Source of the DNA: Salminus brasiliensis
Taxonomy: Eukaryota > Chordata > Actinopteri > Characiformes > Bryconidae
Direction of reading: 5' to 3'
Assembly: GCF_030463535.1 (NCBI RefSeq)
Contig: NC_132899.1
Location: 20,365,990-20,429,989 of the forward strand
Length of the DNA: 64,000 bases
Notes under the pieces: generated by a model
What the model saw: the letters and a program-made list of their open reading frames with translations, nothing else
What the model was told of the DNA's origin: nothing
Database searches by the model: none
Part shown: positions 1,763 through 63,286 of the stretch, piece after piece
How positions within the stretch are numbered: the first letter of the stretch is position 1
Layout: each line of letters begins with the position of its first letter
Made by a program: the position numbers and the translations under genes

Positions 1763-2531
1763 TAGCGGCGCTGTGTCCCAAACCACACTACCACACCAGA
1801 AAGTGTTTCAAAACTAGCACCACTACAATTGCATTTATTTATTAGTGTAGGTGCCTCAGTAAACTGAAGACATGCGAGTTGGGATGCAGCCACAGCAACG
1901 TTCATTTTTACAGCTATAATGTACGTCGTCAAAATGTGTCTTAAGTGTTAATTAATACACATCTCAAGCCCATGTGATTTATACAATATGAGATAAGGGT
2001 CTAAGGGTTTATGTTTTTATTTTTATCACACCTCTATCTCCAGCCTTCTGTCATATGTGCGTCATACCATCACCTTTCCCCCTAATTTTTGGTTCCAATG
2101 TATAATTTGCTTGCTTGGTCCAGACCAAGGGAACCGAACTTACAAGTAGTTCACATCACTTACACAACCTTCTCGAGGGCCAGGCAGACTTCACACCCCT
2201 TCTTCTTGATCCACACCTCACAAAACATACAAACCACACTAACGTACGTCGTGGGGAAAAAAAGGAACGAAATAAACACGTGTGCGTTATTAAAAAGTAC
2301 GTAGATTTATTCAATGTGACTGTTAAGGGTCTAAATGGGTTTAAGTTTTTATGTATTCATTCGCGCTTCCATCCGTCCGAGCTCTGATTCTTCCAGGGAA
2401 ACAATATAACCAGTCCGCTCCAACCAACAACCCGCTGTTTGCCCGCGATGCTGCAGCTTAAATCCCGCCCGTTACTGATTGCGTGGATCACGCAGGATCC
2501 GCAGACCTCTATCTACCACCAGCCTTAGGTC
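1763..2531. other. Non-coding segment between the 55-bp repeats
   Basis: I see no supported exon. On the minus strand an AATAAA hexamer (TTTATT at 2306-2311) lies about 285 bp past the stop of the repeat-protein gene and could be its poly(A) signal. An identical segment exists in unit C. Confidence 0.45.
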
Positions 2532-2594: not shown

Positions 2595-3701
2595 TTACAC
2601 AGCACTCTGGAGCGCCAGACAGGCTTCACACCTCTTCCACCGGGACCCACGAATCTGTGTTTTTCGACCAGCAGGTGGGGTGGGCTGAGGATAGCTGGCT
2701 TTCTGTGAGCTGGAGGTTTCCATTAAAGCGTCCTCATTAGTATAAGCAGCGCGGACCAGTTCATACGGGTTCTTTCGGACATCAATGAGGAGACTACTGT
2801 GACCTTCTCTGAGTTCCCGCCGCTTGGTTCTTTCCTCAGCCACATTGTACTTGGACAAGGGTTTGTTTCGGCCAATATTGACCCATTCACCCACATAGTC
2901 CACCTTCTGGGATTCAGCAGCACAATCAGAGCTGAGCCTGGTGACCTTCAGGAAGCTCCTTGGCTCCGCCATAGGCAACGTGGGCAACATTAGAGGGGCA
3001 AGTCTGGGTCTTTCTTTCTGGGTTGGAGGCTTGTACAGAGCGGTGGGTTGTTTCTTGTGTATATCTGGTAAAAAAGACCCGCCGCTTCTTCCTCCAGGAA
3101 ACAGGGTCAGAGGTCCTCCACTGGGCCCCTGCCTCAGCGGAGGAAGGGACTTACCTCCAGGACACAGCGTAAGAGGTCCTTCACTGGGCCCCTGCCTCAG
3201 CGATGGAAGGGACTTACCTCCAGGACACAGGGTCAGAGGTCCTCCACTGGGCCCCTGCCTCAGCGGAGGAAGGGACTTACCTCCAGGACACAGGGTCAGA
3301 GGTCCTTCACTGGGCCCCTGCCTCAGCGATGGAAGGGACTTACCTCCAGGACACAGGGTCAGAGGTCCTTCACTGGGCCCCTGCCTCAGCGATGGAAGGG
3401 ACTTACTTCCAGGACACAGGGTCAGAGGTCCTTCACTGGGCCCCTGCCTCAGCGGCTGCAGGGACTTACCTTCAATGCACAGGGTGAGAAGTCCTTCACT
3501 GGGCCCCTGCCTCAGCGGCTGCAGGGACTTACCTTCAATGCACAGGGTGAGAAGTCCTTCACTGGGCACCTGCCTCAGCGGCTGCAGGGACTTACCTTCA
3601 ATGCACAGGGTGAGAAGTCCTTCACTGGGCACCTGCCTCAGACTCAGCGGCTGCAGGAACTGCCGACCCTTCATCGGTTTCGGTCTAGCATTGAACGTCA
3701 T
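2595..3701 (-). CDS. Unrecognised 21-residue-repeat protein, copy A (368 aa)
   Basis: I do not recognise this family. The frame starts at the first ATG (3699-3701, residues MTFNARP), shared by both copies. A short N-terminus rich in basic residues and Pro leads into eight full 21-residue repeats plus one degenerate unit. The core is close to GPSEGPLTLCPGGKS. A non-repetitive C-terminal half of about 165 residues follows, containing DYVGEWVNIGRNKPLSKYN and ELVRAAYTNED, and it looks like ordinary coding sequence. The repeat period is 63 bp, so copy number can change without breaking frame. Evidence for a real gene: an identical frame is kept in copy C, a TATA box and CRE lie directly upstream on this strand, and a homologous relic lies at 8045-8240. 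There is no signal peptide or membrane segment. Each full repeat also carries a GTAAGT donor-like site, so the true mRNA may be spliced. Confidence 0.6.
   Translation of the reverse strand: MTFNARPKPMKGRQFLQPLSLRQVPSEGLLTLCIEGKSLQPLRQVPSEGLLTLCIEGKSLQPLRQGPSEGLLTLCIEGKSLQPLRQGPSEGPLTLCPGSKSLPSLRQGPSEGPLTLCPGGKSLPSLRQGPSEGPLTLCPGGKSLPPLRQGPSGGPLTLCPGGKSLPSLRQGPSEGPLTLCPGGKSLPPLRQGPSGGPLTLFPGGRSGGSFLPDIHKKQPTALYKPPTQKERPRLAPLMLPTLPMAEPRSFLKVTRLSSDCAAESQKVDYVGEWVNIGRNKPLSKYNVAEERTKRRELREGHSSLLIDVRKNPYELVRAAYTNEDALMETSSSQKASYPQPTPPAGRKTQIRGSRWKRCEACLALQSAV
3085..3645. repeat. 63-bp minisatellite array, copy A
   Basis: Eight complete 63-bp units plus one decayed unit. The spacing is seen directly: CTGGGCCCCT begins at 3121 and 3184, and so on. 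Two subtypes occur. Three GLLTLCIEG-type units lie at the 5' (high-coordinate) end, followed by GPLTLCPGG-type units. The array is coding in the minus-strand frame. Confidence 0.95.
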
Positions 3702-3781
3702 GACTACCTCCGCAATGACAGCAGACAACCTTCTCCAATGCAGCGTCGCATCAGAATGAACCCGTCACAGTATTTGGGTAC

Positions 3782-3830
3782 TATTTATAACTTCTGTTGG
3801 GCCCGATTGTGACGTCATCGCAAGGCCAAT
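3782..3830 (-). promoter_or_regulatory. TATA + CRE + CCAAT promoter of repeat-protein copy A
   Basis: On the minus strand, TATAAATA (complement of 3782-3789) lies 81 bp before the ATG. A perfect palindromic CRE TGACGTCA lies at 3810-3817, and a CCAAT-type motif lies at 3825-3830 (on the + strand). A TATA box with a proximal CRE is typical of cAMP/CREM-driven genes such as those of haploid germ cells; that reading of tissue is inference. The same arrangement is kept in copy C. Confidence 0.6.
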
Positions 3831-3959
3831 ATATATATAGACGTTCGGTTTTTTTTTTAGTTTTTTTTTTTATAGCGAGATAAACAATGGCAGAAATAAC
3901 TACACATAACTGTCTCTTTTATGTGTAAAATACATTTAAAATAAATAAAAAAATAATAA

Positions 3960-4107
3960 ATTGTACCACATTTTTTCCAACATGTTTGACGGACCAGACA
4001 AACAGCGATCAGGGCCGTGTCTGCCTACCAGTGCTTTGAGCAGCCGGGCTGGTGAGCCCATGGCCATTGCTGTTACCATGGTTCAGGCTTTGTCAGGGTG
4101 CCCCCTT
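3960..4107. repeat. Distal block of unit A (matches 7060-7190)
   Basis: A block of about 140 bp with the motif GACCAGACAAACAGCGATCAGG is present at the far end of units A and C, differing at only a few bases. In A it is cut off by a short poly(A) run at about 4112-4130. In C it continues into unique sequence. Confidence 0.8.
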
Positions 4108-4109
4108 TA

Positions 4110-4516
4110 ACAAAAAAAAAAAAAAAAAAAAACGGTTCACAGTCGCGGATCGGACGCGACTGACCCATCACTACGCCTGAACGAGCCAAACGCCGCAGCC
4201 GCTTGGTTCTTTTCTCAACCACATTGTACTTGGACAAGGGTTTGTTTCGGCCAATATTGAGCCATTCACCCACGTAGTCCACCTTCGGGGATTCAGCAGC
4301 ACAGCCAGAGCTGAGCCTGGTGACCTTCAGGAAGCTCCTTGGCTCCGCCATAGGCAACGTGGGCAACATTAGAGGGGCAAGTCTGGGTCTTTTTTTTCTG
4401 GGTGGAGGCTTGTACAGAGCGGTGGGTTGTTTCTTGTGTATATCTGGTAAAAAAGACCTGCCGCTTCTTCCTCCAGGAAACAGGGTCAGAGGTCCTCCAC
4501 TGGGCCCCTGCCTCAC
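4110..4516 (-). pseudogene. Internally deleted third copy (B) of the repeat-protein gene
   Basis: The segment starts with the block seen at 1683-1740, then jumps about 1.07 kb to sequence matching 2815 onward. It runs through the C-terminal half of the repeat protein and stops inside the first degenerate repeat, fused to a CT microsatellite at about 4515. The N-terminus, all full repeats and the promoter are absent. The last part of the C-terminus is also missing and replaced by unrelated codons. Several substitutions relative to A and C show that it is older or unconstrained. It is a non-functional fragment. Confidence 0.85.
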
Positions 4517-5624
4517 TCTCTCTCTCTCTCTCTCTCTCGTCCCCCTAGAGAACTTTGCGGGAGGCTCTCCTGTAGTGTGCTCAGTGCGCTGTCACTGCGT
4601 GTCTGTAACCCTGCCCCTCTCCTCCTGCTCAGTGTAGACACACAGACACCGCCACACATCTTGACCATTAACGTGTGGCTTTAACAAAAAAACAAAAAAG
4701 AAAAAAAAAATCGGTTCACAGTCGCGGATCGGACGCGACTGACCCATCACTACGCCTGAACGAGCCAAACGCAGGACAGGATTTCACAGGATTAGCGGCG
4801 CTGTGTCCCAAACCACACTACCACACCAGAAAGTGTTTCAAAACTAGCACCACTACAATTGCATTTATTTATTAGTGTAGGTGCCTCAGTAAACTGAAGA
4901 CATGCGAGTTGGGATGCAGCCACAGCAACGTTCATTTTTACAGCTATAATGTACGTCGTCAAAATGTGTCTTAAGTGTTAATTAATACACATCTCAAGCC
5001 CATGTGATTTATACAATATGAGATAAGGGTCTAAGGGTTTATGTTTTTATTTTTATCACACCTCTATCTCCAGCCTTCTGTCATATGTGCGTCATACCAT
5101 CACCTTTCCCCCTAATTTTTGGTTCCAATGTATAATTTGCTTGCTTGGTCCAGACCAAGGGAACCGAACTTACAAGTAGTTCACATCACTTACACAACCT
5201 TCTCGAGGGCCAGGCAGACTTCACACCCCTTCTTCTTGATCCACACCTCACAAAACATACAAACCACACTAACGTACGTCGTGGGGAAAAAAAGGAACGA
5301 AATAAACACGTGTGCGTTATTAAAAAGTACGTAGATTTATTCAATGTGACTGTTAAGGGTCTAAATGGGTTTAAGTTTTTATGTATTCATTCGCGCTTCC
5401 ATCCGTCCGAGCTCTGATTCTTCCAGGGAAACAATATAACCAGTCCGCTCCAACCAACAACCCGCTGTTTGCCCGCGATGCTGCAGCTTAAATCCCGCCC
5501 GTTACTGATTGCGTGGATCACGCAGGATCCGCAGACCTCTATCTACCACCAGCCTTAGGTCACTGACCCATCACTACGCCTGAACGAGCCAAACGCAGGA
5601 CAGGATTTCACAGGATGGATCCGC

Positions 5625-6794
5625 TTACACAGCACTCTGGAGCGCCAGACAGGCTTCACACCTCTTCCACCGGGACCCACGAATCTGTGCTTTTCGACCA
5701 GCAGGTGGGGTGGGCTGAGGATAGCTGGCTTTCTGTGAGCTGGAGGTTTCCATTAAAGCGTCCTCATTAGTATAAGCAGCGCGGACCAGTTCGTACGGGT
5801 TCTTTCGGACATCAATGAGAAGACTACTGTGACCTTCTCTGAGTTCCCACCGCTTGGTTCTTTCCTCAGCCACATTGTACTTGGACAAGGGTTTGTTTCG
5901 GCCAATATTGACCCATTCACCCACATAGTCCACCTTCTGGGATTCAGCAGCACAATCAGAGCTGAGCCTGGTGACCTTCAGGAAGCTCCTTGGCTCCGCC
6001 ATAGGCAACGTGGGCAACATTAGAGGGGCAAGTTTGGGTCTTTCTTTCTGCGTTGGAGGCTTGTACAGAGCGGTGGGTTGTTTCTTGTGTATATCTGGTA
6101 AAAAAGACCCGCCGCTTCTTCCTCCAGGAAACAGGGTCAGAGGTCCTCCACTGGGCCCCTGCCTCAGCGATGGAAGGGACTTACCTCCAGAACACAGGGT
6201 CAGAGGTCCTCCACTGGGCCCCTGCCTCAGCGATGGAATGGACTTACCTCCAGAACACAGGGTCAGAGGTCCTTCACTGGGCCCCTGCCTCAGCGATGGA
6301 ATGGACTTACCTCCAGAACACAGGGTCAGAGGTCCTTCACTGGGCCCCTGCCTCAGCGATGGAATGGACTTACCTCCAGAACACAGGGTCAGAGGTCCTT
6401 CACTGGGCCCCTGCCTCAGCGATGGAAGGGACTTACTTCCAGAACACAGGGTCAGAGGTCCTTCACTGGGCCCCTGCCTCAGCGATGGAATGGACTTACC
6501 TCCAGAACACAGGGTCAGAGGTCCTTCACTGGGCCCCTGCCTCAGCGATGGAAGGGACTTACTTCCAGGACACAGGGTCAGAGGTCCTTCACTGGGCCCC
6601 TGCCTCAGCGATGGAAGGGACTTACTTCCAGGACACAGGGTCAGAGGTCCTTCACTGGGCCCCTGCCTCAGCGGCTGCAGGGACTTACCTTCAATGCACA
6701 GGGTGAGAAGTCCTTCACTGGGCACCTGCCTCAGACTCAGCGGCTGCAGGAACTGCCGACCCTTCATCGGTTTCGGTCTAGCATTGAACGTCAT
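5625..6794 (-). CDS. Unrecognised 21-residue-repeat protein, copy C (389 aa)
   Basis: This is the paralogue of the frame at 2595-3701, with the same N-terminal MTFNARP start and almost identical C-terminal half. The array differs: nine full 21-residue units plus one degenerate unit. Only one GLLTLCIEG-type unit remains, and many units have CSGGKSIPS in place of CPGGKSLPS. The flanks are nearly identical while the array has changed in number and type, which is what recent duplication plus minisatellite turnover would give. The ATG at 6792-6794 is used because it is the first ATG in frame. The CRE/TATA promoter upstream is intact. Function is unknown. It could also be read as spliced, because each unit has a phase-1 GTAAGT. 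Confidence 0.6.
   Translation of the reverse strand: MTFNARPKPMKGRQFLQPLSLRQVPSEGLLTLCIEGKSLQPLRQGPSEGPLTLCPGSKSLPSLRQGPSEGPLTLCPGSKSLPSLRQGPSEGPLTLCSGGKSIPSLRQGPSEGPLTLCSGSKSLPSLRQGPSEGPLTLCSGGKSIPSLRQGPSEGPLTLCSGGKSIPSLRQGPSEGPLTLCSGGKSIPSLRQGPSGGPLTLCSGGKSLPSLRQGPSGGPLTLFPGGRSGGSFLPDIHKKQPTALYKPPTQKERPKLAPLMLPTLPMAEPRSFLKVTRLSSDCAAESQKVDYVGEWVNIGRNKPLSKYNVAEERTKRWELREGHSSLLIDVRKNPYELVRAAYTNEDALMETSSSQKASYPQPTPPAGRKAQIRGSRWKRCEACLALQSAV
6130..6735. repeat. 63-bp minisatellite array, copy C
   Basis: Nine full 63-bp units plus a decayed one, homologous to the array at 3085-3645 but with different unit variants and number. A + strand reading frame is also open through it, simply because 63 is a multiple of 3. 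Confidence 0.95.
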
Positions 6795-6874
6795 GACTAC
6801 CTCCGCAATGACAGCAGACGACCTTCTCCGATGCAGCGTCGCATCAGAATGAACCCGTCACAGTATTTGGGTAC

Positions 6875-6920
6875 TATTTATAACCTCTGATTGTGACGTC
6901 ATCGCAAGGCCAATATATAT
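6875..6920 (-). promoter_or_regulatory. TATA + CRE promoter of repeat-protein copy C
   Basis: TATAAATA (complement of 6875-6882) lies 81 bp before the ATG, the same distance as in copy A. CRE TGACGTCA lies at 6894-6901, 9 bp closer to the TATA box than in copy A because of a small indel. The element is kept in both copies. Confidence 0.6.
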
Positions 6921-8044: not shown

Positions 8045-8240
8045 AGCAGATGTTCAGATGATGGGCACCATCAAGAGGGCAAACCTACCAGGCGCTCTGG
8101 GTCTTGCATGTTGTTTTTTCTAGAGCTTTGAGGTCTTTCTTACAAATATCTGGTGCAAAGGAAACACTGCTCTTACCTCCAGTGCACAAGTTCAGAGCTC
8201 CTTCACTGGGTCTGCCGTCCCTTTAGCATTGTCCTATATT
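8045..8240 (-). pseudogene. Single-repeat relic of the 21-residue-repeat gene
   Basis: Read on the minus strand, this stretch gives recognisable pieces of the repeat-protein gene in the right order. These are MLKGRQ (compare MKGRQ), one repeat PSEGALNLCTGGKS, then SFAPDICKKDLKALEK (compare SFLPDIHKKQPTALYK), then a stop. A frameshift separates the first piece from the second. Only one repeat unit is present, with no array. Nucleotide similarity to the end of the array in copies A and C is clear across about 70 bp. It is an older paralogue or a remnant of the pre-expansion state. Confidence 0.75.
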
Positions 8241-9569: not shown

Positions 9570-11835
9570 TGTGCTGATACTTTAAGATGAATTAATTGGT
9601 GTGCCAGCCGCTTTAAGATGAGCTGGTTGGTGTGCCAGCCGCTTTAAGATGAGCTGGTTGGTGTGCCAGCCGCTTTAAGATGTGCTGGTTGGTGTGCCAG
9701 CTGCTTTAAGATGTGCTGGTTGGTGTGCCAGCCGCTTTAAGATGAGCTGGTTGGTGTGCCAGCCGCTTTAAGATGAGCTGGTTGCTGTGCCAGCCGCTTT
9801 AAGATGAGCTGGTTGCTGTGCCAGCCGCTTTAAGATGAGCTGGTTGCTGTGCCAGCCGCTTTAAGATGAGCTGGTTGGTGTGCCAGCTGCTTTAAGATGA
9901 GCTGGTTGCTGTGCCAGCCGCTTTAAGATGAGCTGGTTGCTGTGCCAGCCGCTTTAAGATGAGCTGGTTGCTGTGCCAGCCGCTTTAAGATGAGCTGGTT
10001 GCTGTGCCAGCTGCTTTAAGATGTGCTGGTTGGTGTGCCAGCCGCTTTAAGATGAGCTGGTTGGTGTGCCAGCCGCTTTAAGATGAGCTGGTTGGTGTGC
10101 CAGCCGCTTTAAGATGAGCTGGTTGGTGTGCCAGCCGCTTTAAGATGAGCTGGTTGCTGTGCCAGCCGCTTTAAGATGAGCTGGTTGCTGTGCCAGCCGC
10201 TTTAAGATGTGCTGGTTGGTGTGTCAGCTGCTTTAAGATGAATTAATTGGTGTGCCAGCCGCTTTAAGATGTGCTGGTTGGTGTGCCAGCTGCTTTAAGA
10301 TGAGCTGGTTGGTGTGCCAGCTGCTTTAAGATGAATTAATTGGTGTGCCAGCTGCTTTAAGATGAGCTGGTTGGTGTGCCAGCTGCTTTAAGATGTGCTG
10401 GTTGGTGTGCCAGCTGCTTTAAGATGAGCTGGTTGGTGTGCCAGCTGCTTTAAGATGAGCTGGTTGGTGTGCCAGCTGCTTTAAGATGAGCTGGTTGGTG
10501 TGCCAGCTGCTTTAAGATGTGCTGGTTGGTGTGCCAGCTGCTTTAAGATGAGCTGGTTGGTGTGCCAGCTGCTTTAAGATGAGCTGGTTGGTGTGCCAGC
10601 TGCTTTAAGATGAGCTGGTTGGTGTGCCAGCCGGTTTAAGATGAGCTGGTTGGTGTGCCAGCCGCTTTAAGATGAGCTGGTTGGTGTGCCAGCTGCTTTA
10701 AGATGAGCTGGTTGGTGTGCCAGCCGCTTTAAGATGTGCTGGTTGGTGTGCCAGCTGCTTTAAGATGAGCTGGTTGGTGTGCCAGCTGCTTTAAGATGAG
10801 CTGGTTGGTGTGCCAGCTGCTTTAAGATGAGCTGGTTGGTGTGCCAGCTGCTTTAAGATGTGCTGGTTGGTGTGCCAGCTGCTTTAAGATGAGCTGGTTG
10901 GTGTGCCAGCTGCTTTAAGATGAGCTGGTTGGTGTGCCAGCTGCTTTAAGATGAGCTGGTTGGTGTGCCAGCCGGTTTAAGATGAGCTGGTTGGTGTGCC
11001 AGCCGCTTTAAGATGAGCTGGTTGGTGTGCCAGCTGCTTTAAGATGAGCTGGTTGGTGTGCCAGCCGCTTTAAGATGTGCTGGTTGGTGTGCCAGCTGCT
11101 TTAAGATGAGCTGGTTGGTGTGCCAGCTGCTTTAAGATGAGCTGGCTGGTGTGCCAGCTGCTTTAAGATGAGCTGGTTGGTGTGCCAGCTGCTTTAAGAT
11201 GTGCTGGTTGGTGTGCCAGCTGCTTTAAGATGTGCTGGTTGGTGTGTCAGCTGCTTTAAGATGAGCTGGTTGGTGTGCCAGCTGCTTTAAGATGAATTAA
11301 TTGGTCTGCCATCCGCTTTAAGATGAGCTGGTTGGTGTGCCAGCCGCTTTAAGATGAGCTGGTTGGTGTGCCAGCCGCTTTAAGATGTGCTGGTTGGTGT
11401 GCCAGCCGCTTTAAGATGTGCTGGTTGGTGTGCCAGCCGGTTTAAGATGAGCTGGTTGGTGTGTCAGCTGCTTTAAGATGAATTAATTGGTGTGCCAGCC
11501 GCTTTAAGATGAGCTGGTTGGTGTGCCAGCCGCTTTAAGATGTGCTGGTTGGTGTGCCAGCCGGTTTAAGATGAGCTGGTTGGTGTGTCAGCTGCTTTAA
11601 GATGAATTAATTGGTGTGCCAGCCGCTTTAAGATGAGCTGGTTGGTGTGCCAGCCGCTTTAAGATGTGCTGGTTGGTGTGCCAGCTGCTTTAAGATGAGC
11701 CGGTTGGTGTGCCAGCTGCTTTAAGATGAGCTGGTTGGTGTGCCAGCTGCTTTAAGATGAGCTGGTTGGTGTGCCAGCCGCTTTAGGATGTGCACATTGT
11801 GTGCTGCTGCTTGAAGATGTACCAGAGGTGTGCCA
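9570..11835. repeat. 31-bp minisatellite, about 70 units
   Basis: The unit is close to GGTGTGCCAGC(C/T)GCTTTAAG followed by ATG(A/T)GCTGGTT, with exact 31-bp spacing along 2.2 kb. Units alternate between CAGCCG and CAGCTG (an E-box palindrome). A minority have AATTAATTGG in place of GCTGGTTGG. Higher-order structure is visible. A rare CCGGTTTAAG variant recurs 341 bp apart (11 units) at 10631 and 10972, and 124 bp apart (4 units) at 11437 and 11561. Edges decay at 9560 and 11800-11835. There is no open reading frame through it. Confidence 0.97.
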
Positions 11836-17500: not shown

Positions 17501-20500
17501 TACAGGCTGTAGCAACAGGATGTAATGTTAGTTTAAGCTCTTCCACTCGCACACAGCCAATAAAGTAAGCAGAGAAATAGAAAATGGGCAAATGGGAATG
17601 GTGGATAATGTATGGTGCAACGTTATGTTAGCAAGATAAAAGACATAGGGCAATGAAGACCCAGCAATTATGATGCTGTTATGCTGCTGCATTGACAAAT
17701 GTTGTTGTTGAATATTATTTATTTCAAGTAAAATGGTTTTTAAGCTTGATGCATCAATTTTTATTTAATGTAAAAAGGTTTACATTTAGTATATCATTAA
17801 TCATTATATCTGTTTAATTTATGCACAGTATAAACTTCAAATTGCTGCTGCATGGTTTGAACCCTATAGAAATTCTTGGAATTACTTGGAAACAACTCTT
17901 TTTCATTGACGTCTAATTAAGTTAAGGGCATTTTTGCCTTCTGGAAAGTCACTATTTTGGAGATACATGTTTTTCATTAGACAGCGATGAAATATATGGC
18001 CAGTGGGTATCAGACCAACATATTGGATATCGGTCTCATTGTCTTCTGAGATAAGTTAATAGATAATGGCCCAAAAAACACACTCATCAACCCTTGGCTA
18101 CGTAATCAATATTTTATTATTCAAATCTAAATTCATCCAAATTCAGTCCATAAGGTTTTGTAATTTATCATTTATTTTTTTTGTTTTTAGTTCTCTTTGA
18201 ACCATAGTTGTCTGGGATTTATGCTAGATTTCCAGTGAGTTTCTTTCAAAGAGTAAAATTCAGCTTGAGTTCGGGGGAATCTGTAATTTATTTTGTTGAC
18301 TGTAATGCAGTGTTCTCCCTTTCGTTTCTCTAGTGAGTACCTTGCCATGCTCATGCCGCCACTAACAGAAGAAAAGATGTAAGTAGAATGTGTTTTCTTC
18401 TGTCTGCTTTTCTTGAGGATGTTGATATTTGGAGATGAGTCATATCACTATTATAAATGTTCATTATCTGTGTCTTTATTGCCATTTTCAGAGTCAAGCC
18501 AGTGGGCCCCAGCAATGTGTTGTCTATGGCCCAACTACGCACCCTGCCCCTTGGGGATCAAGTCAAGACTTTGATGAAGAATGGTAAATTCACTTAACAC
18601 GCTAACTCATTATAATTAATGTGATCTATATCCAGATATTAATGCACCCCCTCTCCCTTTTTAGTTAAAGTCATGCCATTTGCCAACCTAATGGGACTGC
18701 TTGCATCGGGCACAGACTCCACAGCAGTACTACGCTGCATACAACAGGTGGCGCTGCTTGTCCAGGGGAACTGGGTTGTTAAGAGGTGAGATTAATAAGT
18801 TGTCTCTGGCTCTTCCTGTGTTAATGTTCGGTTATGTAATCAGTAGTATGACAGTACATATGCACACATCCTACAGTGGTTTGGGGTGAATGGATTAATA
18901 AATACATATATATTTTTTTAATTACAGCGATGTTCTGTATCCCAAGTCTACCTGCAGTCCACATAGTGGAGTACCTGCAGAAGTTCTCTGTAGAGGTCGG
19001 GACTTTGTGGTAAGTAGTTAAAGTGAAACCTGTCCTGAGGTCACGCTGTAGGTACATGCGGCACACCTTCATAAACAGCAGAAATGCATAAAATCAGTTC
19101 TGATTTCAGATGCGGTGCTTAAATCTGATTCATATTAAAAGTAGCAGTCTGATCAGGTGAAAACCTTTAAGTCAAATAAAAATGGGTTCTCTGTTTTTAA
19201 TTCAGAATAGTCAATTATCAACCAAATAATAATACCACCTTTTATTTTCTAATGAATTGCCTTCATAATGGACCAACTAACTGATTATTGGGGAAGGGGA
19301 AGATTTCAGCACTACCTTGGATTTGGCCCACTTTTACATGCAGTGTGAATGTAGCCTTTGTTTATGGAAACAAAACTTCTGCATGTGGAAATGGAACCTA
19401 AAAAACTACTGGCCTCTAATTCAGTTGTTTTGCATTTTGTCTTGGTCAATTTAGATGTGGAGATTTACACATGAACGCTCTCTGATGAGAAAAGAAGTTG
19501 CTGCTGTCATAAAGGTAATCACCTGGAGCGGTTTATAACTCTACTGGAACAAGAGTTGGTTCTATTTATACTGTGTAGTCCATATGTTGCTAGGTATCGA
19601 AATTAAGAGTGCTGTTATTCATTCTGTGTAGATTGCATGCATTTGCTTAGAAAGTTTAATGTTTTGTCTTAAATTCTTGATATCTGAAACTAGTAGTGTA
19701 TTACCCAGTAACCTTAAGGAGGGTAATTCTGAACGTGTGTGAGTTTGTATGGGTTGTTCTCAATCAAATGAGGAAAATCTGCATGAATGGGATAGAGAGG
19801 CAGAGAGAGGTTTGTAGATGTGAAGCTCATGAACCTGCTCATTTGGTTGCACACACAATCACTCGCTCAAACCATCACTCACTCACATTTAGCAGGCTGT
19901 ATATTTTTCACAAGGGAGCACTATTTGTGCTCCTATAACTGTTAGTGCTTTGCATCAATGACTGTGTATGACCTTGTTTTCGTAATTATCATGTTAACTT
20001 GACATCACTGTGTTATTCTGTTGATTAAATTCTCCTGTGTGCACACTCAGCTGCCTCCTGAGGATGTGAAGGACTTTTTGGAACAGATGGCCATTCCCAG
20101 AGCGAACAGAGGCTGGGACTTTCTGTTGCCTACTGATCAAGACTTTGTCAAGAAGCACCCTGATGTGGCTCAGAGACAGCACATGCTCTGGATGGGCATC
20201 CAGAACAAGTAAACTGCAAATTTGAATTTCTTTTTCATGAAATGGTGCTTGCTTATTGCAAAGACTGTCTGTTTTTGTTCCTGTAATTAATTGGTTTTAA
20301 TTATTTAACTGCAGGCTAGAGAAAGTTTTCAACTTCTCGAAGGAGGATTTCCTGCAGAAAAAGGACACTCCGCCAGGTATTTCTAATTCTCTAATTATTA
20401 TATAGAGCTTATAAACTAGATTTGCTCTTTAAATGCCAGCTAGATTTAGTTTTTCTTCTTACAAATCAGATATCTTTGTGTTTTCAGAGCCACTGCATAT

Positions 20501-23500
20501 TAGTGGCGAACAGCGTCTCAAGGCGGCTCGAGAGAATGCTCGGGAGCACCATGCGTCTCTGCAGAAGGACTTGGATGCCCGAAGACTAAAAGCGTCCGCT
20601 GTGTCTTCTGACGCAACAGTGCGAATTAAAGAAGAGCCTATGAGCGATTCTGAGGAGTCCATGGACACATCTGGTGCTCTTCAAAATGGTTCGTTAAACG
20701 GTTATCCTTCCACAGACTCTCCTGACACGGACCCCCATAATGACCACGGGGCTGGGCCGGCCTCTACCTCAGAGCTCCAAGACTTTGTACGGAACACTTT
20801 CCGAAAGCACTATGTGCTGTGTCTCAGTGAGGTCAAACGCCTGTTCAACCTGCACCTGGCCAGCCTGCCCACAGGCCACTGTGTGTTTGGCCATGTTACA
20901 GACCGCATGCTTCAGGACACCATCCTCCACAGCCACTGCAAGCAGATCCTTGTGCCTGTAAGTACACAAAGGCCCTTATGTACTGTATACCATAGATGAG
21001 CATTAAGGTTCGGAATGGCGAATTAACCATTTTCAGGACAGCATGCACTGGTTCTAGGATATAGATTTATTTATTTATTTATTTTTGTAATACCAGATTT
21101 TTTCTAATTTGTTTCGATTATTCGTTTCAATGGCTAATAGGTATTTGTTGCAGCCCTACTTGGTCACCTTATTTTAAGGTGCTACTTGCTACATACTGTT
21201 GCAATAAGTGGCATAAACAGCATAATTTGAGAATTTGTATTATTTGGGGAGTGTATTTCACTTGCGCTGCCATAAATACAAATCATCATTTGAGCGTCCC
21301 CTCATGGACAGCTGCCCACATTTCAACAAATGCATGTGAAAGAGCTGTGCCGACTTTTAGACAAACAAACCTGACGCTGGGTTCATGTCTCGTGCAGCTC
21401 CACGAAAGTATGTTCCATAGTACGTTAGCAGCGCTTTGGCCTGGAGTGCCAATAACAGACGCCATTCTCCCCAATGTTATTGTAGCTACAAAATTACCCT
21501 GAAGCTGATATTTTAAGGTAAAATGACTTGTCATTTATTGTTTCTTTGAGAAAATGGGGAATTATACTTAGAGATCATCGTGGCCACATAAACACAAACT
21601 TGCACAAGAAAGGGTATCTAAGACAAAGCTCAGGAACGGGACAATAAAAGAAATCGGTAGGCTAAAACGCACTGTGGGGTAAAAGCCCATTGATGTCTGT
21701 TGATGAAGAGAACAGTTACATTCTATATACAAATACATACATTTACAAGCAAGGGCTAATCTATAGCTCGAACTATATTAACTGTAGCTGCAGTCCTGTT
21801 CAGGTGTTGAACTCTAATGTGTAGTCCAATCCAGTTTTGTTTGGGTTTAAGGCGTAATCCTTAATTCTGGATTTAGGGGATACAGGGCAGGGCAGGTTGA
21901 CTGTGTTATGTAATCGCTATTAATGGAGACAAAGCTCATTATTGTTAAGACGAGCCTAATGCCAGGGAGTGTCCGGGAGACACGTCCAGCAGTGTGTTTT
22001 TAAATACAAGCTGTCTGAGTGTGTTGGGTTTTTTTGTTTGTTTTTTGTTGGGCTTTTTTCTCTCTCCTCTTTGTTTGTGTTGATTTTTGCTTTTATTAAA
22101 TCTTTGATAGTCCTCTTATAAAAGTCTTTCTTTTAAAAAAAAGGTCTTCAGAAACTTAAACTATTTAGATAAAATGTTTGAAATATTTTTGAGAACTGTT
22201 GCTATTATAATATTCAAAACTAGTTAAAGGTGTAAAATTACAGTTTCCCCTGTACTGCCATTAATGATAACTATATTAATGTGCTTTCAGTACTAGTATC
22301 AACTAGATAACAGTTCATCAATCGTGCATCTCCATTAGATATGGCATATTGCTATTGATGGAATCAGTATCCGACTAATAGCAGGATAAAAACTAATCCA
22401 ATCCTGTAACAAAACTGTGTGTGTGAGTGTGTGTGTCCATATGTTTGTCGACAGTGTGACTCTTCCTATGTATTGTAGTGTGTTAGAAGAGTTTGAGCAT
22501 AATGGCTCACTTTTAAATGTTCTTCTATTGAAATGATAATGACAATGATAATGATAATACTGTAAGCGTAAGTTTAAATATTAAATCTAAATTGTTTTTT
22601 GTTTATTATTCTAAAGTATTTCATAATCAGTCAATGCTCAAGTTGTCTACCAGAAAAGGAAAAAGTGCCATTGAGCCATCTCTGACCTCAGTAAATGGTA
22701 GGGATCCCTCACAGTGAAGCTGTGTGTGATGTAACTGACTGACTAATGTTTGTTACTTCCAATATGCAGTTTCCTCCTCAGACCAACGCTACTGCTGATG
22801 AACAGAAAGTCTTTGGCTTGTGGGAGAGTGGTGAAACCTTTGATAAGGTAATGGACTTCATCAAAACAGATGCTCGTAACAGCTTTCTGCCTTCTTTTTT
22901 TTCCTATATATGTATATATATATATATATATAGGAAAAGAAAGCAGAAAGCTGTTACGCGCATCATAAATAGTAGCCATATGGTCATGGAAAATAATCCA
23001 AACCATCAGTATCTTTCTGTAGTTTCACATCAGATAGACAGATGGATAGATGGAAGGATAGATACTTCATCGATCCCGAAGGAAATGTAGCATCCAGCAG
23101 CATAACACAATATAGGAACAGATATAGACAGGACTCTGATACAGAGGCAGGTACACATACTAATGCAATAAATAAATAATAAAATTAAGACTAACTAAAC
23201 AGTGTACATCCAGTTAGCAGAATAAGAAACCAGACCATTATTGTTGCACTCTGTCCATTGATTCCATACTCTGAGAATTGAAGAGCCTAATAGTTAGAGG
23301 GACAAAAGATCTCCTCAGCCTGTCTGTTAAGCAGCTCTGTGACCGTAACCTGCCACTGAACTTACTATTCCTGTCCATAATGATGATGTGTAGAAATTGA
23401 GGTTTTAGAATCAGAAGTATGCGGTTTTAATGTGCGATGCAGGTGAAGGATGAGAATATGGTAGGCGGTTAGGTTAGATGTATAAAATACATAGTGTACA

Positions 23501-29575: not shown

Positions 29576-36412
<6,837 letters not shown>

Positions 36413-37898: not shown

Positions 37899-39779
<1,881 letters not shown>

Positions 39780-39789
39780 GGTTATTTTT

Positions 39790-40950
39790 TCTCTGTACTG
39801 TAAAGAACTTGAACTCCCTCATGGTTTTGCTGTAATATGTTACATTTCTTAGAATCTTATCATTTTGGGGAGGATGTGGGTTAAGGGTTTAACACGAAGT
39901 ATCTTAAAGGGCTCAATTTAAAGCTGACGTCAATAAGTTTGTATTATGTACTACATCTCAGGATAACTGGAACTAGTCTAGATCAGTGATTAGGTCTCTG
40001 ATTGCATCTCCTTATCTTTTTACTCCAGTATGCTGGACTCAAATAGGTGTATTTCTTTATTATGGTGAGATGATTGGTTTAGACATTTCCATTTACACAT
40101 GATTTAATACACATGACTTTGTGTGCTAGCTTCCCAGATACCATCATTGCACACAGGGGCACCATATAAAGGGGGCAGGTTAGGCCCCCCATTATAAGGG
40201 TCTGTGAGTGACCGTCCTAAATAGTTAATAATAAGTATTAATAAAGTATTAATTGAGTTTTTAGGCATAATTGTTAGAGTTGGGCCCAGTGTAATATCTT
40301 TTAATGGGGCCCAAAATCCCTGGCAACGCCCCTGATTGCACATGGATGTTATTCCTCCAATCGGTATAAGGACAGTCATTGTTAAAGTACTAGTTGCAGA
40401 ATATTTTTGAGCACTGTGGTGCATTTGGAGGATAAACCTTATGGGGGAAAACCCCCTATAACATTTATTTACTGTGTCTATGCATTAGTTACACATTATA
40501 ATTCATGAACCTATATACTGTTAGAGAGGAGGGGGTAAACTGGAACAGCAGTTCGTTTTGTTCATATAGCACAAAAAACCCCTCTCTCCCCCCTTGGCCC
40601 CCTGCATGATGAAAGAAGCACTCCTTAAGAAATCCTGAATGCAATGTCGTTTGATTTTTGTAGGATGTAGAATTTTTTAATCATTTCTAATCTTTGTATT
40701 TTTTGCATTTGAAATACAAAAATTAAGGTATTCATTTAGGCATAAATGAATTTACATCATTATAATATGATATGGCAAATACTATAGAAATATGTTTTTA
40801 TAAAATAGAAAATGTTGGTGGTGTTTACCCTAATGTAGTGTAAGACCTGGGGTCCTACAAACTTCAAAGGTACTGTTTTACATTTTGGCCTGTAGAATAT
40901 AAGGCCATTTCCAGCTAAGGGCAGAGGTGGTGCTGTAACACTCCATGTGA
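39790..40950. other. mettl9 3' flank / intergenic
   Basis: Mostly unique AT-rich sequence. A segment at about 40130-40340 (GGGGCCCAAAATCCCTGGCA with GGGGGCAGGTTAGGCCCCCC) looks like a decayed DNA-transposon fragment, but I cannot place its ends. Confidence 0.4.
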
Positions 40951-46900: not shown

Positions 46901-48115
46901 CTGTAGATCTTGTGGACCTTCTCCATCTACTTGGAGTCCGTGGCCATTCTGCCTCAGCTTTTCATGATTAGCAAGACTGGAGAAGCTGAGACCATCACCA
47001 CCCACTATCTGTTCTTCCTGGGGCTCTACCGGGCCCTTTATCTCATGAACTGGATCTGGCGCTTCTACTTTGAAGGATTCTTCGATATGATTGCCATTGT
47101 GGCAGGCGTTGTCCAGACAATCCTATATTGTGATTTCTTCTATCTCTATGTAACAAAAGGTAAGTGAAGTGTGAGCTTCTTTATGATCAACTTGTTTTTA
47201 TTTTATTCTTGTTTTTACATTAGCTTTACTTTTTATTTCATTAAAAACTAAAGCATAAGGGGTTGTTTTGTCCTCATGGAGTTTGATCTAAACTGCATTG
47301 CACAAATGGAGAGATTGTAGAGACACTGAGCTGATTGATTGGACAGTTACCTCACCATTGACCTTTCCCAAATGCAGATTGAAATGCAGTTCAGTCTGTT
47401 TTCATCTGTGAGTTCTAGTTACTTAAATCCATGATTTACTGCTTTCAGCATGTGCTAAAACACTGGAGCACCTTCATGTTTCTCCTATTGACAATATATA
47501 AGAAATGGACCCAGTCCTCCCACTTTGTACTTCCTTAACCCATCGGTTTGATCCAAGTTTAGCTCCTAGTTTAGCTCCTTAGATCTCCTCTAGAGCTCCT
47601 TCTTTCTGTTCCTCCCATTGACAGTTTATAAGAACTGGACCCAGCCCTCCTGTCTTCAGTGCTTATGGTGCAAATATCCAGAGCTACTCAGCACATATTT
47701 CTGTGACCGTCACAAGTCATTAAACAGACGCCTTCACAACATACTGAATATTCGTTACAGCTTGCTCCATCATCAGCTGTTTGTGTGGCCTATGACACAC
47801 TGTTAAAGGAAAATGTTTATATAATATTTTGTATTAAATGAAATGATTATTACAAAATCCCATTCATTTTTACTTCTTGTGTGTTTTGATATGATTGCTT
47901 AATATTATGATTTTGACTAGGTTATCATTCCATAAAACAATAACACCAATATAAATAATGGTTAAACAGTAAATCTGAGCATAAGAACATCAGAGGCAAC
48001 AGTCAGCCGTATCTCCTAAATATAGGTGGTCAAAAAACTCTTCCTGTGGGTCCTAAAATTGTCCATGTTTCTGTTTATAGTGCTGAAAGGAAAGAAGCTG
48101 AGTTTGCCAGCTTAA
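43968..48115 (+). CDS. kdelr2: ER lumen protein-retaining (KDEL) receptor 2
   Basis: This seven-helix Golgi/ER receptor binds C-terminal KDEL signals at low pH and returns escaped ER proteins through COPI vesicles. Coding exons: 43968-44058, 45579-45679, 46360-46518, 46907-47159, 48081-48115. They give 212 aa, exactly the human length. [13 protein letters not shown] starts the protein. The ligand-binding residues Arg5, Arg47, Asp50, Glu127, Tyr158, Arg159 and Trp166 are all in place, as is the cytosolic tail KGKKLSLPA with the COPI-binding lysines and the phosphorylatable serine. The few changes from human are conservative (for example I for V). Tail and exon structure fit KDELR2 rather than KDELR1 or 3, and daglb lies next to it as in human. 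Fish may have a second paralogue elsewhere. Confidence 0.97.
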
Positions 48116-59800: not shown

Positions 59801-62800
59801 ACTTGTTCAGACAGTATGATCTCTTTCTGTTTCACAGGGCATATCTCAAGCAGCCAATTATATCTATAAGAAGCTTGTCAATGATGGCATATTGAGCCAA
59901 GCTTTCAGCATTGCACCTGTAAGTCTCATTTGCCTATATGTACTTTTGTACTTTTCATAGGAGTACTCTCAGCTTGGTGTGAATCTGCATGTTATGTAAA
60001 TGTATGTTTGTGCAGGAGTACAGGCTAGTCATCACAGGCCACAGTCTCGGTGCAGGCACAGCCTCCCTACTGGCGGTGCTGCTGCGTAGTACTTACCCCA
60101 CATTGCAGTGCTATGCCTTCTCGCCACCAGGGGGCCTCATGAGGTATGTTTACACATTCAGAATCCTAGACATATTTATGATCAGTTATTTAGCTATAAC
60201 TGTTGATTGGTAACATGGTGGCATGTCTGGTGGGACAGTCTAGAAGATATTACATCCCCTGAAATGCATTATTATTGTGTCTTCCTTTAGCAAAGCACTT
60301 TCTGAGTACTCCAAACAGTTTGTGATTTCCGTGGTTCTAGGAAAGGATCTGGTCCCCAGGTGAGGATTACATGCATAGACTGCTCTCCACACAGCTCAGT
60401 CTCAGTTCAATGTATTTGTAGGGGTGTTATTGTGGTATAGAAGCATTTTGTAGGCATAACTTTGCTTTTCAGGGCTTATGTTTGTGGAGTTAGTTTGGCT
60501 TCACTTCCCTAAAATTATTCAGTCTTCCAAAGTTTCTCTTTCACTGCCATTTTTTTTTTGAAGGTTAAGTATTCCAAACATGGAAGACCTGAAGAGGAGA
60601 ATATTAAAGATGGTGTCCAATTGCAGCAAACCCAAGGTACTTTTTTTTATTTGGTTGGTTGGTTTTCTTACATCGCAGCTTTTTTTTATGGTGGAAAAGA
60701 TTAACTAGGTTTCCCCCAGTATACACTATATGTGGACATTACACTATATGTGGTTTGTGGACATTCCTTCTTAGCTGTAATTTCATTTGCATTAAAGTGT
60801 ATCTATTACTGACACAAGTGACGAGTGCAGAGCAGTACTTATATTGCACATTTTAAAATTAATTAATTTAATTAAACTCCAAAGTGCTTTTCAACCAAAA
60901 CATAAGATATTAAAATGGGTTTAAAACAACTACAAAACATAGTTAAGATAAATAAAAGATAAATTATTTAAAAATAAAATCGATCTGTAATAAAATGTAG
61001 AAGCAAATGGAGTAGAATAGATCACAGTGTCAGTAATATAAAATAATAGTAATATTTAAAAAATAAAAATAATAGTGAATAGTAAAAATGCGTATAAAAC
61101 ACTATATTAAAGCCAGAATAAATAAGTAGGTTTTTTGGTTGCGTCTGTGCTGGAACTCGATTCCAGTTTTGTAATGAGTGTAATGGCTGAAAGTAGCATC
61201 ACCAAATGTTTTTGTTCTGCTTTGAGGAACAGCTGAAAGAGCAGAAACGGAAGAGTAGGTCATAATGCCTAGTGTCAGCTAGGGGCGTATAAAGCCCCTC
61301 AGCAGTGGGCTGTGAGTGAGGAAGCTCCATCCAATGCCTCTGGATGAGATTGAGTGAAGTTTGCGATCCAGGGCTGATCATGCAGGGTTGCCTACCAGAC
61401 CTCACTAAAGCTCTTTGGCTAATTGCAGTCAAATCCTCACAGCAAGGTTCCACAATCTAGTGGAAGGCTTTGCCTGAAGAGCAGAGACGGTTATATCAGC
61501 ATAGATTTTGGAAGAAACATTGGATAAGCAAGTGTCCATTGTTTTGCTGTATAGTTTTTATGCACTGGTATTATTTAAAGGGGGGATTTGACGGAACACC
61601 CTCCATTTGTTGTGATTTTCCTGCATTTAAGTGGACAGACAGGACAAATTCATCAAAACCAGTTGTTAAACCTCAGTATATTCACTGTAGGTCCTGCCCT
61701 TTTCTACTAATTCTCTCTCTCTCTCTCTCTCTCTCTCGTTCTCTCGTTCTCTCTGTTCGCCAGTACAAGATCCTCTTGCATGGCTGCTGGTACGAAGTGT
61801 TTGGGGGAACTCCAGATGACTTCCCCACAGAAATGGAGAACCGGCGGGAGGAGGAGTTAAACCAGCCGTTGCTTGGCAATGGGAGCTTGTTGGTGCAGGG
61901 CTCCACCTCTTACCAGAGCCTGTCTTCAGATGACTCGCCCACCCACCCCACCCATTTGCCACTCTACCTGCCAGGCCGCATCATATACATCACAGAAGAT
62001 GGACCCTCACGAAGGTTAGAGCACAGTAACCTTTTCCAGCTTGTCACAGCACAGATGAAGTTACTCTGAGGCTGTTTACACCTTGCATTAACATGCGTTT
62101 TTTGGTGATCAATGGTAATCAAGGTTCGGATTTCACTTGACTACATGAAAAGTCAGGTGTACGATCTGATAACTCAAACCTAGGGCTGGGCGATAAGGAA
62201 AAATTATTTCATCAGGATATTTAAAAACATTTTCATGATACACAATATTCATTATAATAGATGTGATCGCTGACAAAATGCATTGGTAGTCACAGATTTT
62301 TAAAAACTACCATCTGAACACGCTCCCATATTTAGTACAGTGATTTTTATGCAAACTCTGCTACACTTCATCCAGTTAAACCAGTCTAATAACTGTTTGT
62401 AATGAAACATGCAGTTCAGTATCCTTAATATGCTAGGAAAGCATATTGTGTATCACGATAAGAACATTTATCACGCTATAATAAAAAATTGTCATATAGC
62501 CCAGCTCTACTCAAGCCACATTTGGAGACGGTGAGAGACTCATCTCTACTGCATTTTGAACAAGCGCCCGAATACAGTTTGAGAAGCCATGTATGCACAT
62601 GTGTAGATGGTAGACAATCAGCCACAGCTGGCAGTATGACTGGATGGATGTACTTATTTACCGGAAATGAAGTACACAGGAACGTAGGCTTCGAATCTCA
62701 TCAGTCGTTTTATCTCATCACTCATTTTAGTGAAAAGTGTAAACAGAATCCGGACAGAAAGTAAATTTAGATGCTATTTGGATATGAAACGCATTTTAAT

Positions 62801-63286
62801 GCAAAGTGTATAGCCCCAAGCAATAGCTGTGGTCAGATCAGTATTTACAAGCCCCCTTTTTAATTGAAGTGGTCATAAAAGTATAAACACTGCGAACATA
62901 ATATTTAGCAGACATTCATTACATTCATGCACCAGTGCATCTTGGTAATCCCCTGTGGAATGTTCCCATTTTAAAAGTGCCCCGCTGGACTTTCTGAAAC
63001 CCACATAACTCCAGATAAAAACGTTGATGTAAAAATATACTTTGAGTGTTTCTGTTCCCCCTAATGTCCTGATGTCTCCGTCTTTCCCAGGCACTGCTTC
63101 TCACAGGTGCGGTACCGTGCCGAGTGGTCTAGCGAGATGGCGTTCCGCAGCGTGCTGATCAGTCCACGGATGATCGCCGACCATATGCCCGATGTGGTCC
63201 TCCGGGCCCTGCGCAGCCTCACCACTGACCGGCCGTTCTCCCTCTGCCCTTCCTCCCTCAGCAACAGTCACCTGAATGTCATCTGA
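50836..63286 (+). CDS. daglb: Diacylglycerol lipase beta (DAGLB)
   Basis: DAGLB is a membrane sn-1-specific serine lipase that makes the endocannabinoid 2-arachidonoylglycerol from diacylglycerol. Coding exons: 50836-50930, 52884-53035, 53146-53320, 54825-55092, 55183-55305, 57200-57327, 57421-57547, 57644-57727, 57893-57970, 59838-59918, 60016-60143, 60291-60359, 60564-60636, 61764-62014, 63091-63286. They join in phase to 675 aa (human about 672). The start is [11 protein letters not shown]. Four membrane segments occupy the first 160 residues or so (for example [20 protein letters not shown]). The lipase-3 domain has nucleophile Ser447 in GHSLG, Asp499 in GKDLVPR and His642 in DHMPD, a complete triad. 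The regulatory loop lies around residues 350-370. The exon 14 donor is GTTAGA, weaker than usual. Several introns hold transposons. Confidence 0.97.
51150..51870. repeat. AT-rich minisatellite in daglb intron 1
   Basis: Degenerate units of about 20-25 bp follow the pattern ATTAAATTGAAGGAATGATTT. Within the array a 127-bp higher-order unit (51181 and 51308) is repeated almost exactly. The reading frame is not maintained. Confidence 0.88.
53505..53850. mobile_element. Long fold-back element in daglb intron 3
   Basis: GAGATGCTAGGCTAACTTTG with CTAACAAACACTAGAC (about 53583-53617) is complementary to 53762-53797. Outer arms CTTACCCCAGAAGCAGTCGA (53511 on) and TGATTAAGTGTATCTGGGG (about 53822-53840) also pair. 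Terminal and inner arms place the element at about 345 bp. Confidence 0.75.
54130..54350. repeat. Imperfect tandem duplication in daglb intron 3
   Basis: The motif GTTTCTGAGTG...GTTT(T/C)ACACAAACC(T/C)ATGG occurs twice, and CCAATT(A/G)CAGATG occurs twice between them. This is a decayed short tandem repeat without coding capacity. Confidence 0.6.
54635..54755. mobile_element. Short MITE with GGGTTCTTT / AAAGAACCC ends
   Basis: AAAAAGGGTTCTTTGGCTTCT at the left is complementary to the right end AAAGAACCCTTTTAAG. It is of the same AAAGAACC end type as the MITE at 25499, but shorter. It ends about 70 bp before the exon 4 acceptor. Confidence 0.6.
56410..56490. mobile_element. Dispersed repeat fragment (ACGGCATTTAGCAGAC type)
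   Basis: TTTACATTTACGGCATTTAG followed by CAGACCCTCTTATCCAGAACG and ACTTACAAAGTG is a block I recall from many teleost genomes. Only this end fragment is clear. Confidence 0.55.
58417..58430 (+). promoter_or_regulatory. Near-consensus CTCF-type motif in daglb intron 9
   Basis: CCAGTAGGGGGTGC differs from the CTCF core CCASYAGRKGGCRS at one position (T for C). Single-motif evidence is weak. Confidence 0.35.
60715..61560. mobile_element. Decayed non-autonomous Tc1-type element in daglb intron 13
   Basis: The left end ACACTATATGTGGACATT (about 60722) and right-end fragments CAAGTGTCCATTG and CTGTATAG (about 61530-61555) resemble the ends of the palindrome at 35394. The body contains CACAGCAAGGTTCCACAATC and TAGTGGAAGGCTTTGCC, blocks I recall from a widespread teleost non-autonomous DNA transposon. 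The boundaries are approximate. Confidence 0.55.
61711..61752. repeat. (CT)n microsatellite forming the daglb exon 14 polypyrimidine tract
   Basis: A CT run with CGTT interruptions ends about 10 bp before the exon 14 acceptor CGCCAG|TAC. It therefore serves as, or overlaps, the splice-acceptor pyrimidine tract. Confidence 0.85.
62178..62510. mobile_element. MITE with AGGGCTGGGCGAT ends in daglb intron 14
   Basis: The left end TAGGGCTGGGCGATAAGG and right end GTCATATAGCCCAGCTCT are inverted repeats. The internal ATCACGATAAG/TATCACG motifs are typical of this teleost repeat type. The length is about 330 bp, with no coding capacity. Confidence 0.75.

Follow-up and report, generated by a model that had tools for sequence, protein, structure and literature searches.

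The window analysed here is a stretch of 64,000 nucleotides from Salminus brasiliensis (contig NC_132899.1, positions 20,365,990 to 20,429,989 of the forward strand). Two nearly identical open reading frames (ORFs) on its minus strand, hereafter copies A and B (Table 1), have in common a start, an array of 63-bp repeats, and a C-terminal part. A/B is a real, recently duplicated open frame with no recognisable family and with a promoter composed of a cAMP response element (CRE) and a TATA box, TGACGTCA being followed by TATAAATA upstream of each ATG. An initial annotation of this DNA had described the two frames with coordinates that proved exact, together with their common start and C-terminal part, a CRE and TATA box at both copies, a recent duplication, and a family that could not be placed; these points are borne out, the duplication by the alignment of A with B and the last one by the absence of a recognisable relative in Pfam or the PDB. 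The same annotation had the frames encode 21-residue repeats, and it is this claim that needs revision.

The repeat unit is 21 codons long, and the difference in copy number between A and B preserves the frame. Read on the minus strand, GTAAGT is present in 8/9 units of A (first intron bases 3595, 3532, 3469, 3406, 3343, 3280, 3217, and 3154) and in 9/10 units of B (6688, 6625, 6562, 6499, 6436, 6373, 6310, 6247, and 6184), always in phase 1. The preceding bases across these 17 donors are GAG in 9 cases, AAG in 4, and GAA in 4. Ranked by a simple donor matrix among the 7411 GT sites of the 64-kb window, the repeat units themselves included, the AAG/GTAAGT donors (the slash marks the exon–intron boundary) tie at rank 9 and the GAG/GTAAGT donors at rank 22; hence 13/17 donors are within the best 22 sites. 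The divergent last unit of both arrays has GGAGGAAG in place of GTAAGT, and a donor there would give an intron of only 27 nt. Directly after the array lies an acceptor, TTTTTTACCAG/ATA, with the first exon base at 3064 in A and 6094 in B; this site (GGCGGGTCTTTTTTACCAG/ATA, 27 nt beyond the GGAGGAAG of the last unit) has rank 253 of 8348 and is in phase 1 in both copies. The predicted introns are 90–531 nt long in A and 90–594 nt in B, and the predicted products are open for all 17 donors, rising in 21-residue steps from 191 and 212 to 338 amino acids in A and from 191 to 359 in B. Coding repeats are only one of two readings, because a 5′ splice site is present in 17/19 units and is matched by a 3′ site beyond the array; what was read as "21-residue repeats" could lie within an intron, or form a ladder of alternative donors. 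Of the earlier interpretation as a whole, the duplication, the lack of a known family, and the CRE/TATA promoter stand, while the coding repeat is not supported as it was put.

A and B constitute a tandem duplication of about 3 kb. In global alignment, the 3′ flank shows 0 differences in 832 bp and the N-terminal 60 bp likewise show 0 differences, while 6/504 sites differ in the C-terminal coding sequence, 14/406 (plus 13 gap positions) in the promoter and upstream region, and 39/543 (plus one unit) in the array. This gradient of divergence points to recombination or conversion within the 3′ half. A broken fragment, copy C, sits between A and B, and a decayed older copy, relic 1, indicates that the family predates the recent duplication. 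Relic 1 carries a donor, GAG/GTAAGA, at 8176 (rank 43) and an acceptor, TTTCCTTTGCACCAG/ATA, at 8149 (rank 270), in the same phase and at the matching places; its identity to B is 27/34 before the donor, 17/27 between donor and acceptor, and 19/30 after the acceptor. Whole-genome searches (1.07 Gb, 103 contigs; the window is on contig C26) with the C-terminal 157 amino acids found three places at E ≤ 1 once all 6 first-look candidates had been scored, namely A, B, and C; the relic-1 query found four places at E ≤ 10, all in the local cluster (all 4 candidates scored).

To assess the splice-site pair, the protein was kept and its synonymous codons were reshuffled, with thresholds set just below the observed pair, which had to recur in the same phase within 200 nt. 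When only the first and last units of B were retained, a pair as strong arose in 157/10000 trials with codons permuted and in 126/10000 with codons drawn evenly; for relic 1, in 253/10000 or 33/10000 synonymous reshufflings; and for random stretches of the window, in 65/10000 and 10/10000. A pair of this strength thus arises by synonymous chance in 0.3–2.5% of trials, so that splicing is favoured as likely, though not proven. The openness of the array was considered as a proof of coding by itself and rejected: all three opposite-strand frames of the consensus unit are free of stops, and opposite-strand frames are open over all or much of each array, so openness says little. The array variation shows no sign of protein constraint: once both last units are set aside, the 17 GTAAGT units show 18 distinct changes, of which 7 are synonymous, against 29% expected (P = 0.25).

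In searches for relatives, none of A, B, and C matched a Pfam family at E ≤ 1. The spliced form, typed by hand as 192 amino acids (one residue too many), gave one sub-threshold match in Pfam (E 0.2; 11.8 bits vs. a cut-off of 27) and, in the PDB, a CRISPR-associated protein at chance level (E 0.29), the same protein that was the one chance-level match of the ORFs and the C-terminal part (E 0.64 and 0.24). There was no match in IMG/VR, as expected for a vertebrate gene. An open C-terminal frame by chance is moderately unlikely: at least 160 of 167 codons are open in 0.26% of 5000 mononucleotide shuffles. Between C and B, 1 synonymous and 11 nonsynonymous codons differ, and the contrast with the A–B comparison has a Fisher P of 0.083 with every codon counted, weakening to P = 0.24–0.27 when the breakpoint, compensating-indel, and B-only codons are removed. 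That A/B is a working gene is plausible but unproven.

The promoter motif TGACGTCA occurs three times in the window (at both copies and at 39925–39932), with 0.52 occurrences expected and at least three seen in 2/100 shuffles; followed by TATAAATA within 5–30 bases, it is found in the window at these two promoters only, and in 0/100 shuffles. The CRE lies near the transcription start predicted from the TATA box. The sharing of CRE and TATA box by A and B was considered as a sign of selection and rejected: because the duplication is recent, their retention in both copies reflects shared ancestry. The spacing between the two motifs differs by 9 bp between the copies. The initial annotation also suggested a target of CREM in spermatids, which is a guess from the motif. 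CREB-family factors act on CREs outside the testis too, and the relevant CREM chromatin immunoprecipitation sequencing data are reportedly from mouse. In the data analysed in PMC3285179, a full CRE is present in only 11.2% of the CREM-bound promoters; the motif is therefore neither needed nor diagnostic for CREM.

On balance, with a confidence that stops just short of even, we propose that the array of A/B is a splice-donor minisatellite in a vertebrate protein gene of unknown family, very recently duplicated in tandem and driven by a CRE/TATA promoter. Multiplication of the end of exon 1, with its 5′ splice site, would have produced the 63-bp minisatellite. In the RNA, with transcription starting from the CRE/TATA promoter, the single acceptor after the array would be joined to any one of the equivalent in-phase donors, 8 in A and 9 in B. 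If the first donor won, nearly the whole array would be removed and a 191-residue protein made, while each later donor would add 21 residues. The frames, the array, the donor and acceptor sequences with their phases, the promoter motifs, the duplication, and relic 1 are direct observations, whereas we infer transcription, splicing, the winning donor, a restriction of the family to one lineage, and any function of the protein. A further claim, which we hold to be improbable, is that protein length is set by competition among the 8 or 9 near-identical in-phase donors, giving a 21-residue ladder of isoforms that changes with repeat number between the tandem copies and, presumably, between alleles.

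Several observations weigh against splicing or against a gene altogether. The frame is stop-free across the whole array in both A and B, which an intron does not need; a hand estimate of the chance of this, covering a unit and a remainder that are both multiples of three and the lack of a stop, is about 4% for a non-coding array. The acceptor is good, not exceptional (approximately the top 3% of AG sites), the four GAA/GTAAGT donors are weaker (rank 144 of 7411), and the splice matrices use textbook frequencies in place of training on this species. The donor and acceptor of relic 1 are separated by 27 nt, less than a vertebrate intron needs, so that this pair is unable to function in its present state. 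Finally, the C-terminal parts of A and B differ by 3 synonymous and 3 nonsynonymous changes, with a ratio of nonsynonymous to synonymous rates (dN/dS) of about 0.3, not distinguishable from 1 (P = 0.15).

The main rival, in our view a real though minority possibility, is a single-exon gene with a coding minisatellite, in which a 21-residue repeat rich in Pro, Gly, Ser, and Leu occurs 9–10 times ahead of a C-terminal region of some 157 amino acids. Consistent with it are the continuous frame of 368/389 amino acids, the unit of 21 codons whose copy-number difference keeps the frame, and relic 1, whose corresponding frame stays open for 45 codons, running through the donor and the acceptor; furthermore, single-exon genes make up nearly 28% of the zebrafish orphan genes in PMC3599513. 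However, a single exon leaves the strong in-phase donors and acceptor of the genes and the relic unexplained, and the array shows no visible protein-level constraint. The two improbabilities, of the splice pair on one side and of the open array on the other, are of similar order, with the splice model somewhat favoured. Alternatively, A/B may not be a working gene at all, being part of a decaying open-frame family in a repeat-rich, rearranging stretch beside an array of transfer RNA (tRNA) genes, with A and B open only because they are recent. We consider this unlikely: the promoter motifs are in the right order and at the right distance from the ATG, and the C-terminal frame is open at P of about 0.003, even if broken or decayed relatives are nearby (C, relic 1, possibly relic 2), the 3′ flank contains dispersed-repeat DNA, no known domain is seen, the divergence of A and B is too small to reveal selection, and the contrast with copy C reaches only P = 0.083, then 0.24–0.27 without the doubtful codons.

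If the array is spliced, the ORF call of a 21-residue repeat protein is wrong for this gene, and the same error may perhaps affect other apparently coding minisatellites with a multiple-of-three unit containing GGTAAG. The locus would then also be a natural test of the choice made by the spliceosome between numerous donors that are nearly equal and evenly spaced, as one genome offers two nearly identical copies with 8 and 9 donors to compare.

Table 1. Features of the A/B locus, in positions of the window.
Feature	Position	Strand	Remark
Copy A, continuous ORF	2595–3701	minus	368 amino acids if unspliced
Copy B, continuous ORF	5625–6794	minus	389 amino acids if unspliced
63-bp array of A	3091–3641	minus	8.7 copies
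63-bp array of B	6121–6734	minus	9.7 copies
Proposed intron of A, first donor	3065–3595	minus	531 nt, phase 1; predicted
Proposed intron of B, first donor	6095–6688	minus	594 nt, phase 1; predicted
Core promoter of A	TGACGTCA 3810–3817, TATAAATA 3782–3789	minus	spacing 20 bp
Core promoter of B	TGACGTCA 6894–6901, TATAAATA 6875–6882	minus	spacing 11 bp
Copy C, broken fragment	4199–4516	minus	last repeat unit and part of C-terminal region; without gene start and promoter
Relic 1, decayed older copy	8088–8213	minus	single repeat unit; 56% amino acid identity over 32 codons
Possible relic 2	2163–2201; identical repeat at 5193–5231	minus	resembles last 13 codons and stop of the gene
3′ flank mosaic of dispersed-repeat pieces	1763–2531		identical in other copy at 4793–5561

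The 3′ flank is partly made of dispersed repeats, with 1762–1929 matching at least 37 other places; in A and B alike, minus-strand AATAAA is found 283, 573, 751, and 755 nt past the stop. The mosaic is bracketed by a perfect 55-bp direct repeat (1708–1762 and 2532–2586; also 4738–4792 and 5562–5616); beside fragment C, 35/55 bp of this direct repeat (4159–4193) continue into the outer flank without the mosaic. The possible relic 2, situated within the mosaic, reads KGCEVCLALEKVV-stop compared to KRCEACLALQSAV-stop of the gene, with 36/44 identical nucleotides (E 3e-8 in local DNA comparison), the peptide match alone being not significant. When 13 dispersed-repeat loci (L013–L025) were compared with the gene end, there was no match below E 0.2 at the DNA level, and at the peptide level the gene end matched L019 (E 0.028); relic 2 itself has a weak DNA-level match to L013 (E 0.009 over 47 bp). 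Close to three copies of the dispersed repeat (L013, L019, and L022), a KCExCL-like stretch is again present, on the opposite strand. Relic 2 may derive from the C-terminal end of the gene or from a dispersed repeat, to which the gene end itself may also be related.

To the left, a tandem array of minus-strand tRNA-Leu genes occupies positions 1–803 of the window and 90 kb beyond it, with a spacing of about 721 bp and two genes per unit. The left flank and the window together yield 69 tRNA predictions (48 Leu(TAG), 18 Leu(AAG), 1 Leu(GAG), and 2 called Tyr(ATA)), a count obtained despite N at 62,959/89,990 left-flank bases (L004–L006, L026–L031). To the right, a 31-bp minisatellite (9580–11819; 72 copies, 93% matches) lies between the gene and the C-terminal exon of RNA polymerase III subunit RPC5 (POLR3E) at 20433–20996, identified by Pfam RPC5_C and the PDB; a second 31-bp array has 6.5 copies (31867–32069). 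Pfam also identifies a DREV methyltransferase (METTL9-like; 38524–39528) and a KDEL receptor (46907–47164), while two ORFs without a Pfam match, at 29576–30442 and 61461–62066, are ones that we take to be CDR2-like and DAGL-like, respectively. A Sleeping Beauty-type transposase domain was detected as well and, like the neighbouring genes, fits a fish genome.

The closest parallel to the proposed splicing is human IFI6, the repeat of which was reportedly first described by Turri et al. in 1995. Its unit is 12 bp long, unlike the 63-bp unit of A/B, where each donor adds 21 residues and splicing is predicted. In IFI6, two downstream repeat units act as donors, giving rise to three messenger RNA species, as described in PMC4526556. 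If splicing holds, A/B resembles IFI6 in that a tandem repeat forms the end of an exon and its units serve as alternative 5′ splice sites; at the sequence level, a consensus 5′ splice site is found in 8/9 and 9/10 units, and a phase-compatible 3′ site is found downstream. No sequence relation of the A/B protein to IFI6 turned up in the searches made. With CREM/CREB targets, the locus shares a TATA box that has a perfect palindromic CRE a short way upstream. As in the zebrafish orphan genes of PMC3599513, A/B has no recognisable domain, no assigned function, and few exons (one or two here); however, the zebrafish orphan proteins average 131 amino acids, while A/B has 191 or more in any predicted form.

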